From contig CAMKTS010000005.1 in NCBI GenBank assembly GCA_946415755.1, positions 1-64,000 on the forward strand: a DNA stretch of 64,000 bases, read 5' to 3'. This document shows positions 8,902 through 17,486 of this stretch, in pieces. How positions within the stretch are numbered: position 1 is the first letter of the stretch; each line of letters starts with the position of its first letter. The notes under the pieces were generated by a model, which ran no database searches, was not told the DNA's origin, and saw nothing but the letters and a program-made list of their open reading frames with translations. The DNA comes from an uncultured Prevotella sp. (GTDB lineage Bacteria > Bacteroidota > Bacteroidia > Bacteroidales > Bacteroidaceae). A program made the position numbers and the translations under genes.

Positions 8902-11643
8902 TTATAAGTTAAAGAACAGTTCCACGCCGAACGAGAAGCTGCTGGTGTTGCGCTGTGTCAGCGTACCGCTGGTGCTGCTGCTCATAAACGGCTCGTAGTA
9001 CAATACGTTGTTGGCATAGAACGACAGGCCAGCAAACTTGCCGAACTCCTTGGTCAGTCGTGCCGAGAGGTTCCACGTGATGGGTTCTTTCACAGGGTCG
9101 TTGTCGTTGGGTCTGCGCTTCTGTGCCTCCACGTCGATGCCCACGTTGGTGGCAGTAGGTGACCACTTTCCCTGGTTGTCTATCCAGATGGTGGTCATAT
9201 CGGGTGCGATGCGGTGCCACTGCAGGTCGGTGGTGATGAATGCATAGGGGTCTTTCGGTGCCGTATAGCTATAGGTCGAGCTGTGCCAGATGACCTGTCC
9301 TGTGAACGATGCCACCATGCGCAGTGCCGGTATGTTGGTGACGAGTCTGAGCGTATTGACGAATCGTCGGCTGCGGCTGTAGTCCAGTCCGCTGGGGAAT
9401 ACCAGTTTGATGGGTGTTGTCTTCGACGTATAGGGTGTTGGCAGACTTTCCGGATTGGCGGTGTTCAGACCCTCCGACCAGCTCTTGCTTTCCTGCCATG
9501 CTCCTGAGAAGTATATCGATGTGTTGAGGGGCTTGATGCGTCCGAGGTCGCAGTCGAACTCCACGCCACGGTTTTGCAGCACGTTGTCGTTGCCCACCAG
9601 TCCTGTCGTTGTCCAGTAGATGCTGGGCACGTTGGCTGCTGTTCGCTGCTCCCAGTCGGCCACGCTGGCATACTGCAGCGACTCGTAGGTGACGGGCCAG
9701 AGGTCGCTGCTGAATCCGTTGGGTGTACGGTCTTGGTAGGCGGTGATGCTCAGTTTGCGGTTGCCGGGCAGCTTGACATCAAGTCCTGCCTCTATCTTCG
9801 TGGTGGTGGCGTTCTTCAGGTTTCGCGAGTATTCCACCTGCTGTACGTAGGTGTGTACCACCACACGGCTCTGTGGGTAGAGCGTTGGGCTGGTATTGCC
9901 GTTGGCATACGATGCCAGAGCGATGTGGTCGTTATAGTTGTTGTCAGGATAGAGGTAGTTCAGTCCTGGTGTCTTCGAGTTAAGTCCGATGCCTCCTCTG
10001 ATGTTCAGCCACTTGGTGACTTCGAGTGTGAGGTTCAGTCGTGGCGAGAGGGCAAAGGTGCGTATGTCGCTGAAGGGCTGCATGGCAGTGAAGCGCGCTC
10101 CGGCCATCACGCGCAGGTGACGGCCCTTGGCATATTCCCAGCTGAGGTTGTCTTCCAGGTAGGCGGCTATCTGGTGCAGTCCCGGCACATCGCTGAATGC
10201 CCTGGGGCGACCGTTCTCGTTGGGTTGCAAGGGCAGTTGGTCGTCGGCGTTGTAGTAGCCCTTTCCGCTGTTCCAGTCGTAGTGGTAGTCGATGCCCATC
10301 TTGAATCGCTGGTTGACCTTTTTGCTTTTCAGGAAGAAGGCGTTGCTCACCTTTGCGAAGAGGTTGCCCGGCCGGCTTTCAGTATGTCCTGTAGCCTGGT
10401 ATTCCTTATCGAGCCAGGGTACCTCGTAGTACCCCGTCTGGCGTGCCGTGATGAGGTGTACCACCTTGTTGCTGGTGGGCACGAATTTGGTCTGGCTGTT
10501 GTCGATGGCTGTGAGCGACAGTCCTACGGTATAATTAATGGTACGCGAGAAGAGCCGGTCGACGCTGATTTTTCCATTATGTGTCAGCGAGAACTGCCGG
10601 TTGCTGTTCTTCGTCTCGTTGCCGTCTTGCTGTGCGTCGGGGTCATTGCCGTTCCAGTCTCTGGCATACAGGTAGCGCACCTTCGTGTCGGTATGCCAGC
10701 GTCTGGTGATGTCTATGCCGTAGCCTACCGACATGGTCAGTCGGTGGAACGAGCGTGTCTTCTCCCTGGGGTCTCCCCACGCCTGTGCATAGTCGGCGTT
10801 GAAGTTCAGCACGCCGTAGCGGTTCATCCTCAGTCCCTTTCCCAGCGAGTAGTTCATCAGTCCGGGGTTCACCTTTCCCTTGATTTGCCAGGGGGTGACG
10901 CCAATCTTCGAGCGTACCACCATGAGTCCGCTGGTCAGGTCGCCGTATTCTGCCGATGGGATGCCTCTTATCACCTCCACCTCGTCGATGTCGTCGGCCG
11001 AGAAGTTTCTGAGGTCCGTGCCGGTGAATGCCGTTGCCGAGAAGCTGCCCTGGTCTACGTTGCCATTGTTCGATACGGGCATGCCGTCGAGTATGACGCT
11101 CGATCCGAATGCCGCCGTGTTGTTGTTGGTCAGCGTGCGTATCTGCAGGTTCGACTGTGCCGTCAGGTCGGTGTTGGTCATCAGGTTGCCGGGTATGAGC
11201 TGCATGATGTCGGCGAGGCTTGATGCCTGCAGGTGGTCGATGGCCTGTCGGCCGATGATGCTGCTGGTGGCTGCTCCGCTGGCGTTCTGCTTGGCGGTGA
11301 CGTGTACCTCTCTTAGTGCGAGTGTGGTGGGTGTCAGCTGGCATTTCATGTGCAGCGGTTTGCTCACCCTGACCTGTGTGGTCTGCGGCTCATAGCCCAC
11401 GTAGGTGATCTGCAGCTGGTAGTTGCCTGCCGCTACGTTGCGCAGCGTGGCGTGTCCGTCGGCATTGGTGACGGCAATGATGCCTGCCGGCTGCAGCTGT
11501 ACGGTGGCCATGATGATGGGTTCCCGCGTGTCGCGGTCGGTCACCAGTACGTCGACGGTGTAGGCGGTGTGTGTGTCCTGCTGGGCGTGCATTGCTGTCG
11601 CCATGCAGATAAGTGCTGTCAATAGGTTTAGTCTGAATCTCAT
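8902..11643 (-). CDS. TonB-dependent receptor with carboxypeptidase-regulatory-like N-terminal domain
   Basis: start set at MRFRLNLLTALICMATAMHA; plug-like region (SSVILDGMPVSN...IDEVEVIRGIPSAEYGDLTSGLMVV); C-terminal SFGVELFFNL. Confidence 0.92.
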   Translation of the reverse strand: MRFRLNLLTALICMATAMHAQQDTHTAYTVDVLVTDRDTREPIIMATVQLQPAGIIAVTNADGHATLRNVAAGNYQLQITYVGYEPQTTQVRVSKPLHMKCQLTPTTLALREVHVTAKQNASGAATSSIIGRQAIDHLQASSLADIMQLIPGNLMTNTDLTAQSNLQIRTLTNNNTAAFGSSVILDGMPVSNNGNVDQGSFSATAFTGTDLRNFSADDIDEVEVIRGIPSAEYGDLTSGLMVVRSKIGVTPWQIKGKVNPGLMNYSLGKGLRMNRYGVLNFNADYAQAWGDPREKTRSFHRLTMSVGYGIDITRRWHTDTKVRYLYARDWNGNDPDAQQDGNETKNSNRQFSLTHNGKISVDRLFSRTINYTVGLSLTAIDNSQTKFVPTSNKVVHLITARQTGYYEVPWLDKEYQATGHTESRPGNLFAKVSNAFFLKSKKVNQRFKMGIDYHYDWNSGKGYYNADDQLPLQPNENGRPRAFSDVPGLHQIAAYLEDNLSWEYAKGRHLRVMAGARFTAMQPFSDIRTFALSPRLNLTLEVTKWLNIRGGIGLNSKTPGLNYLYPDNNYNDHIALASYANGNTSPTLYPQSRVVVHTYVQQVEYSRNLKNATTTKIEAGLDVKLPGNRKLSITAYQDRTPNGFSSDLWPVTYESLQYASVADWEQRTAANVPSIYWTTTGLVGNDNVLQNRGVEFDCDLGRIKPLNTSIYFSGAWQESKSWSEGLNTANPESLPTPYTSKTTPIKLVFPSGLDYSRSRRFVNTLRLVTNIPALRMVASFTGQVIWHSSTYSYTAPKDPYAFITTDLQWHRIAPDMTTIWIDNQGKWSPTATNVGIDVEAQKRRPNDNDPVKEPITWNLSARLTKEFGKFAGLSFYANNVLYYEPFMSSSTSGTLTQRNTSSFSFGVELFFNL

Positions 11644-12683
11644 TGCTGATGTAGTGTGTTGAGTCGTTCGTTCAGGTCGGCTGTTATTCTCTTGAAGGGT
11701 TCCGACTCCGTAAATGCGGTATTTTTTCTCAGTGTCTGTTTGATGTCCTGTTGCGAGTGTTCGTAGCACGCCATCTCGTTGCTTTTCTGCATGAAGTGTC
11801 GTGCCGTGCGTTCTATCTCCTGCTCTCGCTCCTGCCTCAGTTTGTTGCATACCTTGTTGAGGATGGGCACTACGACGTTGTCGAACAGCGAGTGGCCTTG
11901 AATGTACAGGTAGGCGGCACGTGCCGTGATGCCCAATGCGCGCAGGTCGTTCTTGGTCTTGAGATACTCATCCTTGTTGTTGGGAAATTCGGCCTGCAGC
12001 TGTTTCACCTTGGTATTCACCTTGTGTCGCAGGTGGTCGATGGATGTCTGCGGGTTCTCCAGGTTGAAGTTGCCAGGGTCGATGATGCGGTTCATGTCGA
12101 CGAGCGAGAACTTGTTGTGGCATCCCTTGCGGTAGGCCCATACCGACCAGGTGAGCAGTGGCGAGATGGCCTCGCTGTACTGGCTGAGGTAGTCTTCGAA
12201 GTCGAAGATGCGGTGGTCGTTCAGCGTGACGGCAACGCAGACGTCGTGCAGCGATGGTGCGTAGCATTGCATATTCTCGATGGCGTAGGCGTAGGTATGA
12301 AAGACGTAGGGGCTGTCGAGCACCATTCTCGACTGTTCCGTAGCCCTCTGCAGCAAGTAGTCGTAGTCGGCATCCACGCAGGCTATCATCGACGGCCCCA
12401 GCCTGTCGCCGCCGTCAGACTTCTCCCCTTTGGCGGACGGGAGAGGATTCAGGAAGTTCAGCAGCACGGCTTTCTTTCCTCTGTCCAGCTTCTTGTGCGA
12501 AGGCAGCATCACCTCGAAGTAGCGTGTCTCGTTCTCGAACTGTCTGAGCACGGTACGCCAGAAGAAGATGTCGTCGTAGCTCTCCACGTATGCCACGATG
12601 CGCCTTCTGGCCTGTTTGCTCTTCAGTGCATTCGCCGCCTCGAAGTATCTGCTGTTGAGATTATCCTTCAGCTGCTTCCCCAT
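11640..12683 (-). CDS. DUF4435 domain protein (TOPRIM-like; AriB-type partner of an AAA ATPase)
   Basis: AYVESYDDIFFW, ACVDADYDYL and YAIENM motifs; directly downstream of the AAA ATPase. Confidence 0.75.
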   Translation of the reverse strand: MGKQLKDNLNSRYFEAANALKSKQARRRIVAYVESYDDIFFWRTVLRQFENETRYFEVMLPSHKKLDRGKKAVLLNFLNPLPSAKGEKSDGGDRLGPSMIACVDADYDYLLQRATEQSRMVLDSPYVFHTYAYAIENMQCYAPSLHDVCVAVTLNDHRIFDFEDYLSQYSEAISPLLTWSVWAYRKGCHNKFSLVDMNRIIDPGNFNLENPQTSIDHLRHKVNTKVKQLQAEFPNNKDEYLKTKNDLRALGITARAAYLYIQGHSLFDNVVVPILNKVCNKLRQEREQEIERTARHFMQKSNEMACYEHSQQDIKQTLRKNTAFTESEPFKRITADLNERLNTLHQQ

Positions 12684-12693
12684 TCCTCATTAC

Positions 12694-13515
12694 TCATTTC
12701 TCATTCCTCATTTCGACAGTGATGTCGCTCACTTCCGTCACGTGGTCGGCCCATCCGTTCATGATGACGGCAGGCGAGTGCGTGGTCAGTATCACCTGCA
12801 CGTTGGGGTTCAGCTCGGTGATGAGGTCTATCAGGCGCTTTTGCCATTCGATGTGCAGGCTCACCTCCGGCTCGTCCATGAAGAGCACGTGGGGCAGCTG
12901 GTTCTGCACGAGCACCGTGAGCAGTATCACCAGCATCTGCTTCTCTCCCGAACTGAGTTGGTAGGGCACCAGTGTCTCCCCCATCTGCGAGAACCGTATC
13001 TCGTTCTCCGTGCGTATCATCTTCTTTCCCGTGTCGTCGAACAGCTCGTCCACCATGTCCTGGAACCTCGTCTTGGCCTGCGACAGCTGCTGCGCAGCAT
13101 TGGCGTTGCCCTTTTGCAGTTCGGCGATGATGCGGTTGCCGATGTTCACCTGGTAGTCCAGGTATTTGCGTTGCAGGTGGTACAGCTCGAAGTCAAGTGC
13201 CGATGTGATGCGCGAGTCTACGAGGCTCATGGTGTCAGCGTCGAGCATGGGTGAGTCGAGCGAGCGTATGATGTCGAACCTCACGTGTGTGGCATCCTCC
13301 GGTTCTGCCGTGATGTGTACTCCCTTGAGCAGGTGGTTGATCAGGTCGCCGTTGGTGTTGATGCTCTTAAACACCTTGTTCAGGATGGTCGACTTTCCCA
13401 CCCCGTTGATGCCGCTGAGTATGTTTACGTGTGCATCCAGCGTCCATACGATGTGTTTCTTGCCGCTCCACAGTGCGTCAATCTCTATCTTCTTGATGTA
13501 GTCTGCATACTTCAT
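12694..13515 (-). CDS. AAA/ABC-type ATPase (AriA/OLD-like)
   Basis: Walker A GINGVGKST, signature LSSGEKQ, Walker B HVLFMDEPEVSLH, TTHSP H-loop. Confidence 0.85.
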   Translation of the reverse strand: MKYADYIKKIEIDALWSGKKHIVWTLDAHVNILSGINGVGKSTILNKVFKSINTNGDLINHLLKGVHITAEPEDATHVRFDIIRSLDSPMLDADTMSLVDSRITSALDFELYHLQRKYLDYQVNIGNRIIAELQKGNANAAQQLSQAKTRFQDMVDELFDDTGKKMIRTENEIRFSQMGETLVPYQLSSGEKQMLVILLTVLVQNQLPHVLFMDEPEVSLHIEWQKRLIDLITELNPNVQVILTTHSPAVIMNGWADHVTEVSDITVEMRNEK

Positions 13516-13602: not shown

Positions 13603-13965
13603 CTAATATCCCAACATGGCAGCTGGTGTTATTCCTAAAGTGGCACAAAGCAGACGGGCTATCTTCAGCGTAGGTTCTGCCCTACCTGAAACATAGTCGC
13701 TTATGCGTGAAGGACTGACACCAATCTCTGTAGCCAATTGTTTCTGGCTCATCTTCTTCTCATCCAGAGAAAGCTGTATCAGCTGGGCTACAGTAGGTTT
13801 TCCAATGGGATAGTACACCTTCTCGTAGTCTATTACGACATTCGACATCATTGTCAACTCTACCGCATTACGGTCGTTGGAAGGTGTGTTGTCATCCACC
13901 ATCGGCAACAGTTCTTCTATCCGTGCCAATGCAAATTCATATTGCTCTTTTGTAATCTTTGCCAT
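13603..13965 (-). CDS. higA: HigA-like XRE-family antitoxin
   Basis: HTH KKMSQKQLATEIGVSPSRISDYVSGRAEPTL; follows a HigB-like gene. Confidence 0.8.
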   Translation of the reverse strand: MAKITKEQYEFALARIEELLPMVDDNTPSNDRNAVELTMMSNVVIDYEKVYYPIGKPTVAQLIQLSLDEKKMSQKQLATEIGVSPSRISDYVSGRAEPTLKIARLLCATLGITPAAMLGY

Positions 13966-13983
13966 ATTCGTACCTCCTTATAT

Positions 13984-14283
13984 TTATATCGTTGAAACGT
14001 CAATCTTGTCGTATTCACTATGAGTGCCCACAAATCGGATGAAGATATGTCCGATTGTGAACTTTACAACCACAACTAGACGATATTTGTTGCCCCTGAT
14101 GTCAAAGACATAATGTTGGTTCCCAACGTAGTCTGTCGATGGGAAGTCAGCCTTTATATCCGACAGGTTCTTCCACTCTGCCTTTTCTGCAATGTCATAC
14201 CATCGTTCAAGTGCAGCTTGAGCGTCTCCATGTCCTTTCGAACTATAGAACTCAACTAATCGTCTATGTGACACTATTCTCAT
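13984..14283 (-). CDS. higB: HigB-like mRNA interferase toxin
   Basis: 99 aa; NQHYVFDIRGNKYRLVVVVKFTIGHIFIRFVGTHSEYDKID matches the HigB family pattern. Confidence 0.85.
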   Translation of the reverse strand: MRIVSHRRLVEFYSSKGHGDAQAALERWYDIAEKAEWKNLSDIKADFPSTDYVGNQHYVFDIRGNKYRLVVVVKFTIGHIFIRFVGTHSEYDKIDVSTI

Positions 14284-14882: not shown

Positions 14883-14936
14883 ATGTTCCCACGTAAGAAG
14901 AAAAACAGAACTGGCACCGTTAGTGTGAGTGGTTGA
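14883..14936 (+). pseudogene. 5' remnant of an IS1634-like transposase
   Basis: ATG reads MFPRKKKNRTGTVSVSG then stop; resembles the N-terminus (MFxRKKKNxSGxxSV) of IS1634-type transposases. Confidence 0.45.
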
Positions 14937-14939
14937 CGA

Positions 14940-15002
14940 TTCACGGAGCTGAGGAGCCTCTTCACGACCGTGAGTGGCCTCTTCACCGAGCTGAGTGGCC
15001 CA
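14940..15002. repeat. three degenerate 21 bp tandem repeats
   Basis: ttcacggagctgaggagcctc / ttcacgaccgtgagtggcctc / ttcaccgagctgagtggccca. Confidence 0.7.
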
Positions 15003-15126
15003 CTCACGGAAATCCCGCACGCTGGGATTTTCCGTACCCATCAAATCATCATTTTTCAAAATGTCACTTTCGCTGATGTAACATTCTTTCGCGCACGCGC
15101 ATGTATATAGCGAAACGTCTTTTTAT

Positions 15127-15206
15127 GTGACCCTTCCGACCCTTCTGACCCGTAAAAGACTTTCGACAATATCCCGGTTACGGGTCAGAAGGGTCAGAAG
15201 GGTCAC
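15127..15206. repeat. long hairpin 1
   Basis: 29 bp stem (15127-15155 / 15178-15206), 28/29 complementary, followed by a T run. Confidence 0.9.
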
Positions 15207-15273
15207 GTTTTTTTGCGTTTGCCTACTACGTACGCACGCGCGTATATATGCGAAAGGCTAAAACACGTGTCAT

Positions 15274-15326
15274 ACGTGTCCTACCCGTCCAATCCGTTAT
15301 GGACACATAGGACGGGTAGGACACAT
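15274..15326. repeat. long hairpin 2
   Basis: 17 bp stem (15274-15290 / 15310-15326), 16/17 complementary, followed by a T run; stem sequence differs from hairpin 1. Confidence 0.9.
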
Positions 15327-15475
15327 GTTTTTGGCATATAGCAAGTATGTTATTTGCTTCTGCGAATGCACAGAACCGCCTAGTTTGTGTAACAAATTCC
15401 AACGTGGACTGGCAGAACAATTCTTCTCTCTATTCCGTGTCCTTTTCTCTTTAAAAACGGATCAGGGAACCGTCC

Positions 15476-16317: not shown

Positions 16318-16466
16318 AGCTGTAGCTATTTCTCCTTAAATTTCATGTCCCGTTTCCCTTCAGAGGGGGGGGCATGTTTTCTTTTGGGCACTATTACCCC
16401 TTGTGTGTTAATTTTCTCTGTAATTCCTTTGGGAGTTGCGGAGTTTTTTGTAATTTTGCCGTCGTA

Positions 16467-17486
16467 ATGAAACGTGAAGTTTACGAGAGCCAGAAGGCCT
16501 TTGCGGGCGAGAAGAAGCCCTCGATGCAGCGACGCTGTGTAGGTCACGACTACACGGAGCGCATGATGTATATGGTGACGATGGTGACCGAAGGCCGCCG
16601 TCCGCTCTTCGGGCAGGTGGTGGGAAACAGCGAAGAGCCTGAAGGCAGTCCTGATGCCCCACGCATAGTGCTAACGGAGCTGGGGCAGCGGGTGAGCGAT
16701 GAGTGGTGGGGCATTCCCCGTTATTACCCGCAGGTAGAAATCAAGGCTCTGCAGATGATGCCCGACCACTTGCATGGCATCATCTTTGTCAGAGAAGTGA
16801 TGGAGAAAGACCTCAGCCGCATCATTCGTGGTTTTAAGACCGGCTGCAATCACCATTACCGCGAGCTTTTCCCCTCCGTTCCGTATGTTGCGACTCAGTC
16901 GCAACAAACAGGACATTACGACCGCACCCACGGTCTTCTTTTTGCCCCGGGTTTCAACGACAAGCTGCTCCTGCGCCAGGGCCAGCTACAGCGATGGCTC
17001 GACTACCTGCGCGACAACCCGCGCCGTCTCCTGATGAAGCGCGAACATCCCGACCTCTTCCGCGTACAGCGAGGCCTCGTGGTGGCAGGCCGGCAGTTCT
17101 CTGCCATTGGCAACCGCTTCCTACTGCAACGTCCCGTGCGCCTGCAGGTGCAGTGCTCGCGCCGCCTCACCGATGAGGAGATAGCCGAGAAACAGGCGTG
17201 GTGGCTACAGCAGGCCCGCAGCGGTGCCGTGCTCGTCTCTCCCTGCATCTCCAAGGGCGAGAAACAGGTGATGCGCGCCGCCTTCAATGAGGATCTTCCG
17301 CTCATTGTACTTCAGGAGAACGGCTTTACTGACCTTGCCAAGCCCGGCGGTCAGCGCATGGAGGCCTGCGCCTGCGGCCAGCTGCTCCTACTTGCTCCCT
17401 GGGAGCACCATAATGAGCACCTCGCCATCCGTCGCGACCAGTGCCTAGCCCTGAACGACATGGCAAGAATAATTTGTGAAAGATAA
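16467..17486 (+). CDS. Y1/HUH transposase-like (RAYT-type) protein with extra C-terminal domain
   Basis: MPDHLHGIIFV HUH motif, DYLRDNPRRLL; C-terminal GAVLVSPCISKGEKQVMRAAFNEDLPLIVLQENGF. Confidence 0.75.
   Translation: MKREVYESQKAFAGEKKPSMQRRCVGHDYTERMMYMVTMVTEGRRPLFGQVVGNSEEPEGSPDAPRIVLTELGQRVSDEWWGIPRYYPQVEIKALQMMPDHLHGIIFVREVMEKDLSRIIRGFKTGCNHHYRELFPSVPYVATQSQQTGHYDRTHGLLFAPGFNDKLLLRQGQLQRWLDYLRDNPRRLLMKREHPDLFRVQRGLVVAGRQFSAIGNRFLLQRPVRLQVQCSRRLTDEEIAEKQAWWLQQARSGAVLVSPCISKGEKQVMRAAFNEDLPLIVLQENGFTDLAKPGGQRMEACACGQLLLLAPWEHHNEHLAIRRDQCLALNDMARIICER

Follow-up and report, generated by a model that had tools for sequence, protein, structure and literature searches.

A dispersed palindromic repeat of Prevotella genomes recurs beside the gene for a short VapE helicase

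The window analysed here, a stretch of 64,000 nucleotides of an uncultured Prevotella sp. (GenBank assembly GCA_946415755.1, contig CAMKTS010000005.1), carries two long hairpins flanked by boxes, both of which had been described in an earlier note on this DNA and were recovered by sequence analysis and with a repeat finder. The arms of unit 1 (29 nt each) are 97% complementary, and this unit ranks first among the close inverted repeats of the 64-kb window; those of unit 2 (18 nt each) are 94% complementary. Upon comparison with dinucleotide shuffles, unit 1 had a folding z-score of -10.3 and unit 2 one of -5.3; in either case, 0/200 shuffles equalled the real sequence. The interval of 15085-15335 originally assigned to the pair holds for the hairpins but falls short of the repeat as a whole, which spans ~14913-15354 and includes an array of 21-nt repeats. 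The features are as follows.

14913..15354, plus strand: whole repeat, comprising array, small hairpin, box, unit 1, shared box and unit 2; BLAST comparison with loci of the own genome gave 94.6% identity to the contig C13 locus
14940..15002, plus strand: three 21-nt direct repeats whose sequence type matches that of the in-frame repeat in the VapE gene of contig C16 (repeat finder, array comparison, VapE N-terminus)
15006..15035, plus strand: small hairpin ACGGAAATCCC..GGGATTTTCCGT in the interval between array and box, seen in several own-genome copies (read from sequence; folds)
15092..15115, plus strand: left box of unit 1 (15092-15108) plus the start of the left foot (to 15115), CGCACGCGCATGTATATAGCGAAA (own-genome pattern search)
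15106..15240, plus strand: unit 1, family covariance-model match (106 bits, E 2.7e-18)
15127..15155, plus strand: left arm of unit 1, made of 9-nt repeats (repeat finder, folding)
15178..15206, plus strand: right arm of unit 1 (repeat finder, folding)
15233..15249, no strand assigned: CGCGCG/TATATA box common to both units, forming the right end of unit 1 on the plus strand and the end of unit 2 on the minus strand
15233..15349, minus strand: unit 2, opposite-strand family member (covariance model, 52 bits, E 2.8e-7)
15276-15293 and 15307-15324: arms of unit 2

Both units were recognized by the covariance model as members of one repeat family. Since unit 1 lies on the plus strand and unit 2 on the minus strand, with overlapping feet, what had been taken for twin paralogous units in tandem is instead an inverted doublet built around a common box. 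The same doublet is present at the contig C13 locus, a copy related to unit 2 stands solo on contig C15, and, in other species, several loci (L230, L107, L079 and L097) have opposite-strand matches at a short distance from each other.

Among the neighboring genes of the window, AriB and AriA on the minus strand (11640-13515) constitute a PARIS anti-phage defence system (PADLOC, 1.3e-62 and 1.7e-57, respectively) and are adjoined by a gene pair for a HigB-like toxin and an HTH antitoxin (13603-14283, minus strand). On the plus strand, positions 16374-17486 encode a RAYT-like (Y1 HUH) protein that is divergent, contains DHLHG and YLRDNP motifs and has no Pfam match; it is 39% identical to a second such protein encoded on contig C16.

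The earlier note had recommended a search with a covariance model and an inspection of the genes beside other copies; the linkage of the family to a short VapE helicase gene, described below, had escaped it. The own genome, a 2.99-Mb draft, contains ~16 copies of the family, 14 of which were found by the covariance model and two further by BLAST. A model built from diverse copies detected the family in 28/300 genomes of the genus, a count for which ten candidates at most were scored per genome; some of the matches represent one and the same place read on either strand, and in a few genomes all matches were weak. The family was absent from the 245 other genomes of the order searched with the model, plasmid and phage records gave no match to the repeat, and viral contigs gave none to its foot. 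Forty of 43 placed copies were intergenic, crude ORF calls situating 15 of them between convergent, 14 between tandem and 11 between divergent genes. The copies share the features of MITEs in being short, non-coding, multi-copy and intergenic, with related inverted ends. Their canonical order is a genome-specific 21-nt array; a CGCGCG/TATATA box; the foot TATAGTTGTYATATCCACTTTTTAT or a variant thereof; a left arm of three 9-nt repeats; a loop; a right arm carrying three such repeats in inverted order; the foot TTGTTTTTCTGTTTCCCTACTA; and a CGCGCG box. In own-genome copies, the loop occurs in both orientations and its sequence is not conserved. The proposal that the region might be simple decayed IS sequence finds no support, as feet and 9-nt repeats recur across species and no transposase remnant was seen in the window element. 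In the open-access literature (subscription journals being outside the scope of the search), we found no published account matching Prevotella REPs or MITEs, or VapE hairpins.

A gene for a Zn-ribbon protein of 58-60 aa and a VapE gene flank the hairpin on contig C16 of the own genome, as they do in two other species. This arrangement, with the hairpin between the Zn-ribbon gene and a short (~440 aa) VapE and directly upstream of the latter, was found in 13/13 usable loci from a scan of named genomes that overlap the 300-genome set, and about ten loci encoding long VapE (most ~700 aa) harbored neither hairpin nor array. All named loci with the linked helicase come from Prevotella or Prevotellaceae MAGs, the legible sources of which include yak, goat and deer. 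The constant neighbors at VapE loci were a peptidase M15 gene (12/14) and the Zn-ribbon gene (14/14), no others being conserved throughout. As read from the sequences, the right foot coincides in most of these loci with the 3′ end of the Zn-ribbon gene, where CGCGCGCGT reads as RARV codons, and the left foot coincides in some with the VapE start (MKYDNY). Of the 300 genus genomes, ten encode a close short VapE, and all ten are hairpin-positive with copies away from VapE (Fisher p 9e-12); two VapE-side hairpins were included in the training of the model, and each VapE genome also matches away from VapE. A close short VapE was not found in 18 of the 28 hairpin-positive genomes, which may reflect incomplete MAGs, a lost source or weak hits. 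None of the 53 dispersed loci examined (479 kb) had a helicase of the short VapE type nearby. Viral contigs contained no VapE relative of the short kind, and PADLOC returned no match linking VapE or the Zn-ribbon protein to a defence system.

The gene and the dispersed copies further share the 21-nt repeat. In L039 (9720-9800), as in other short VapE genes, an otherwise well-conserved helicase sequence is interrupted by a 21-nt minisatellite that is in frame and hypervariable. The corresponding protein block lies between 'EEFR' and 'W.QLTDR' and usually consists of 7-aa repeats (ATQLREE, EGHLYDA, KAPGFAK and others). When the DNA of the VapE repeat blocks was compared to the dispersed arrays, the mean local score was 31 for arrays of the same genome and 13 for those of other genomes; the same-genome array was the row maximum in 5/8 genomes, the remaining three (G291, G258 and G031) forming one related block.

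Short VapE carries PF05272 and is a Rep-type (D5/primase C-terminal) helicase. It matches SaPI PriRep1 (PDB 7pds) both in sequence (2.8e-9) and in fold (8e-7), and is devoid of the N-terminal part present in long VapE. The helix and strand order of its confidently predicted C-terminal domain suggests a winged helix; over much of its remaining length the model is poor. In SaPI Rep proteins and in the SCCmec helicase Cch2, the C-terminal domain is what binds short iterons located beside the helicase's own gene, and Cch2 requires AAGTG (PMC7581432). In the VapE-side left arms, lag 9 gave the best self-match in 15/15 cases, and the 9-nt repeats conform to the consensus YGAC[CA]CTTC. Position 4 is C in 45/45 repeats and position 6 in 42/45, the third repeat of the arm deviating at its end. 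Reverse-complemented, the Prevotella core CNCTT reads AAGNG, to be compared with the AAGTG of Cch2; this correspondence provides no more than a lead. The two systems thus have in common a homologous helicase and short repeats adjoining the helicase gene (PMC7581432; PDB 7pds). They differ in position, the known iterons of SaPI and SCCmec being found downstream of the helicase gene and the 9-nt repeats directly upstream of it (13/13 named loci), and in that the Prevotella repeats form a hairpin copied to many chromosomal sites. The Prevotella gene is further set apart by its in-frame minisatellite and by the lack of the N-terminal portion that long VapE has. Of the three functions suggested earlier for the hairpins, a hairpin origin or recognition site of a linked element comes closest, the linked element being the short VapE helicase locus and the role as an origin a putative one.

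The earlier note had also argued from compensatory divergence of the stems to selection on structure, which holds only in part. Across the family the compensatory divergence was borne out, with double changes at 18/24 pairs and 103 double-change cells against 32.9 in shuffles, 0/500 of which reached the observed score. At single dispersed sites, in contrast, changes were mostly uncompensated, the outcome that the earlier note had named as refuting its reading, here at the level of single copies: 3/3 stem differences between the sister species G142 and G245 at an orthologous dispersed site were one-sided, as were stem changes in several own-genome copies. Five orthologous copies in the sister species G074 and G320 were too alike to show how the stems evolve. 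Both arms consist of a single 9-nt motif, arrayed in inverted order and evolving in concert, and paired and unpaired repeats were therefore compared. Using an alignment fitted to structure and hence biased towards pairing, paired repeats of dispersed copies had 0.88 mismatches and unpaired ones 1.85 (17/21 lineages, p 4e-5), whereas the corresponding values at VapE loci, 1.64 and 1.43, did not differ significantly in a small sample. Pairing is thus characteristic of the dispersed form, individual copies of which drift afterwards. Stems were also better paired in dispersed than in VapE-side copies, so that the former may not have been templated directly by the VapE site.

We give roughly even chances to the reading that the inverted doublet of the window belongs to a non-autonomous, MITE/REP-like dispersed repeat of the short VapE locus of rumen Prevotella, in which the 9-nt repeats are putative VapE iterons and hairpin and array would be copied by VapE. 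The VapE-side hairpin would be an origin-like site of inverted iterons bound by the VapE protein; VapE, perhaps together with the Zn-ribbon protein, would open or copy the folded strand, and hairpin and array would thereby be copied to intergenic sites as non-autonomous elements. Copying might require or produce the foldback, and the copies would decay after their arrival. Helicase binding and mobilisation by VapE are what we infer from these data, which may equally fit a VapE locus that spreads the repeat and one that merely hosts it. More tentatively, and less probably than not, dispersal could be transposase-free, with short VapE recognizing the inverted-iteron hairpin by its own gene and copying it to scattered sites along with a minisatellite that its own coding sequence shares, and with 9-nt and 21-nt repeats changing in concert between species. 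Mobility as such is supported by the scattered positions, the species-specific sets of copies and one gene end at which two sister species differ in the presence of a copy; flank searches in two sister-species pairs returned this one-sided case, and no two-sided empty site or target duplication.

An ordinary MITE driven by a DDE transposase, an early copy of which was by chance acquired and kept by the VapE locus, would account for the intergenic and palindromic nature of the copies, for the CGCGCG/TATATA boxes at both ends and for the inverted doublets, and has a precedent in BrickBuilt of Porphyromonas gingivalis. As far as the accessible part of its description goes (PMC4596501), BrickBuilt is likewise a short, intergenic element of the Bacteroidales, present in multiple copies and bearing a minisatellite array as well as small inverted ends; its repeats measure 23 nt and its ends are reported to be IS5-like, and that part mentions no helicase link, long stem of 9-nt repeats or in-gene array. 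Searches aimed at other questions turned up no transposase or IS with such ends, and an ordinary MITE leaves unexplained why each short VapE gene should carry the repeat type of its genome as well as the hairpin. We consider this explanation unlikely.

Rather less probable still are REP-like elements mobilised by a RAYT (Y1 HUH) transposase, such as the protein encoded at 16374-17486. RAYT-like genes do lie ~1 kb from the window copy (contig C5) and ~1 kb from the C16 copy, the window protein matches NF047646 (E 4e-11, under the curated cut-off), and Bacteroidetes RAYTs of subclass 2.6 are described with flanking atypical secondary structures that have copies elsewhere (PMC6006769). REPs, BIMEs and REPINs associated with RAYTs (PMC3733652, PMC6006769) are, moreover, also dispersed intergenic palindromes that form inverted doublets and whose stems differ between families by complementary changes. 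RAYT genes, however, do not track the hairpins (17/28 positive versus 142/272 negative genomes, p 0.43); no RAYT was matched at 1e-20 in some positive genomes, G222 and G142 among them, and a RAYT was found within 2/53 dispersed loci (479 kb). In known REPs, a GTAG-type tetranucleotide directly adjoins the base of a stem of 5-13 bp, whereas the Prevotella stems are 25-29 bp long and made of 9-nt repeats, GTAG/GTTG-like strings lying ~20 nt off, and the gene linked to them is a helicase gene.

That the hairpins are transcription terminators or 3′-end RNA elements kept for their RNA structure appears improbable. Long stems followed by a T run, 15/40 classifiable intergenic copies between convergent genes and several copies close behind a stop codon speak for it, but the window copy lies between divergent genes, as do the 11 copies so classed by crude ORF calls, T runs precede the stem as well, and single-site stem changes are one-sided. 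Nor would termination call for arrays, boxes or linkage to VapE. Searches of Rfam at the gathering score yielded a tRNA as the sole match in the window, and paired small RNAs, the remaining suggestion of the earlier note, gain no support from this result or from a loop that is unconserved and found in both orientations. RAYT transposases, terminators and small RNAs fit the data less well than a MITE/REP-like repeat linked to the helicase, and the recurrent VapE linkage with matching arrays is unexplained by a RAYT, by a MITE with an unseen transposase or by a terminator.

An orphan family of bacterial palindromic repeats is here tied to a replication-type helicase gene rather than to a transposase, two genome-specific repeat sequences being common to the gene and the dispersed copies. 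As a consequence, what moves or maintains such repeats becomes directly testable, and the VapE loci offer a natural series of helicase-iteron pairs for the study of origin recognition.

Two individual copies bear on exchange and insertion within the family. One on contig C1 of the own genome (L038:110-260) is chimeric, its left arm representing one stem type and its right arm, for the most part, the other, a pattern suggestive of blocks having been exchanged between copies. Another, in G074 (L235:3009-3189), contains within its loop a different repeat, CACTGACCCCACCCCCAACCCCTCCCC..., indicating that other dispersed repeats insert into these hairpins.
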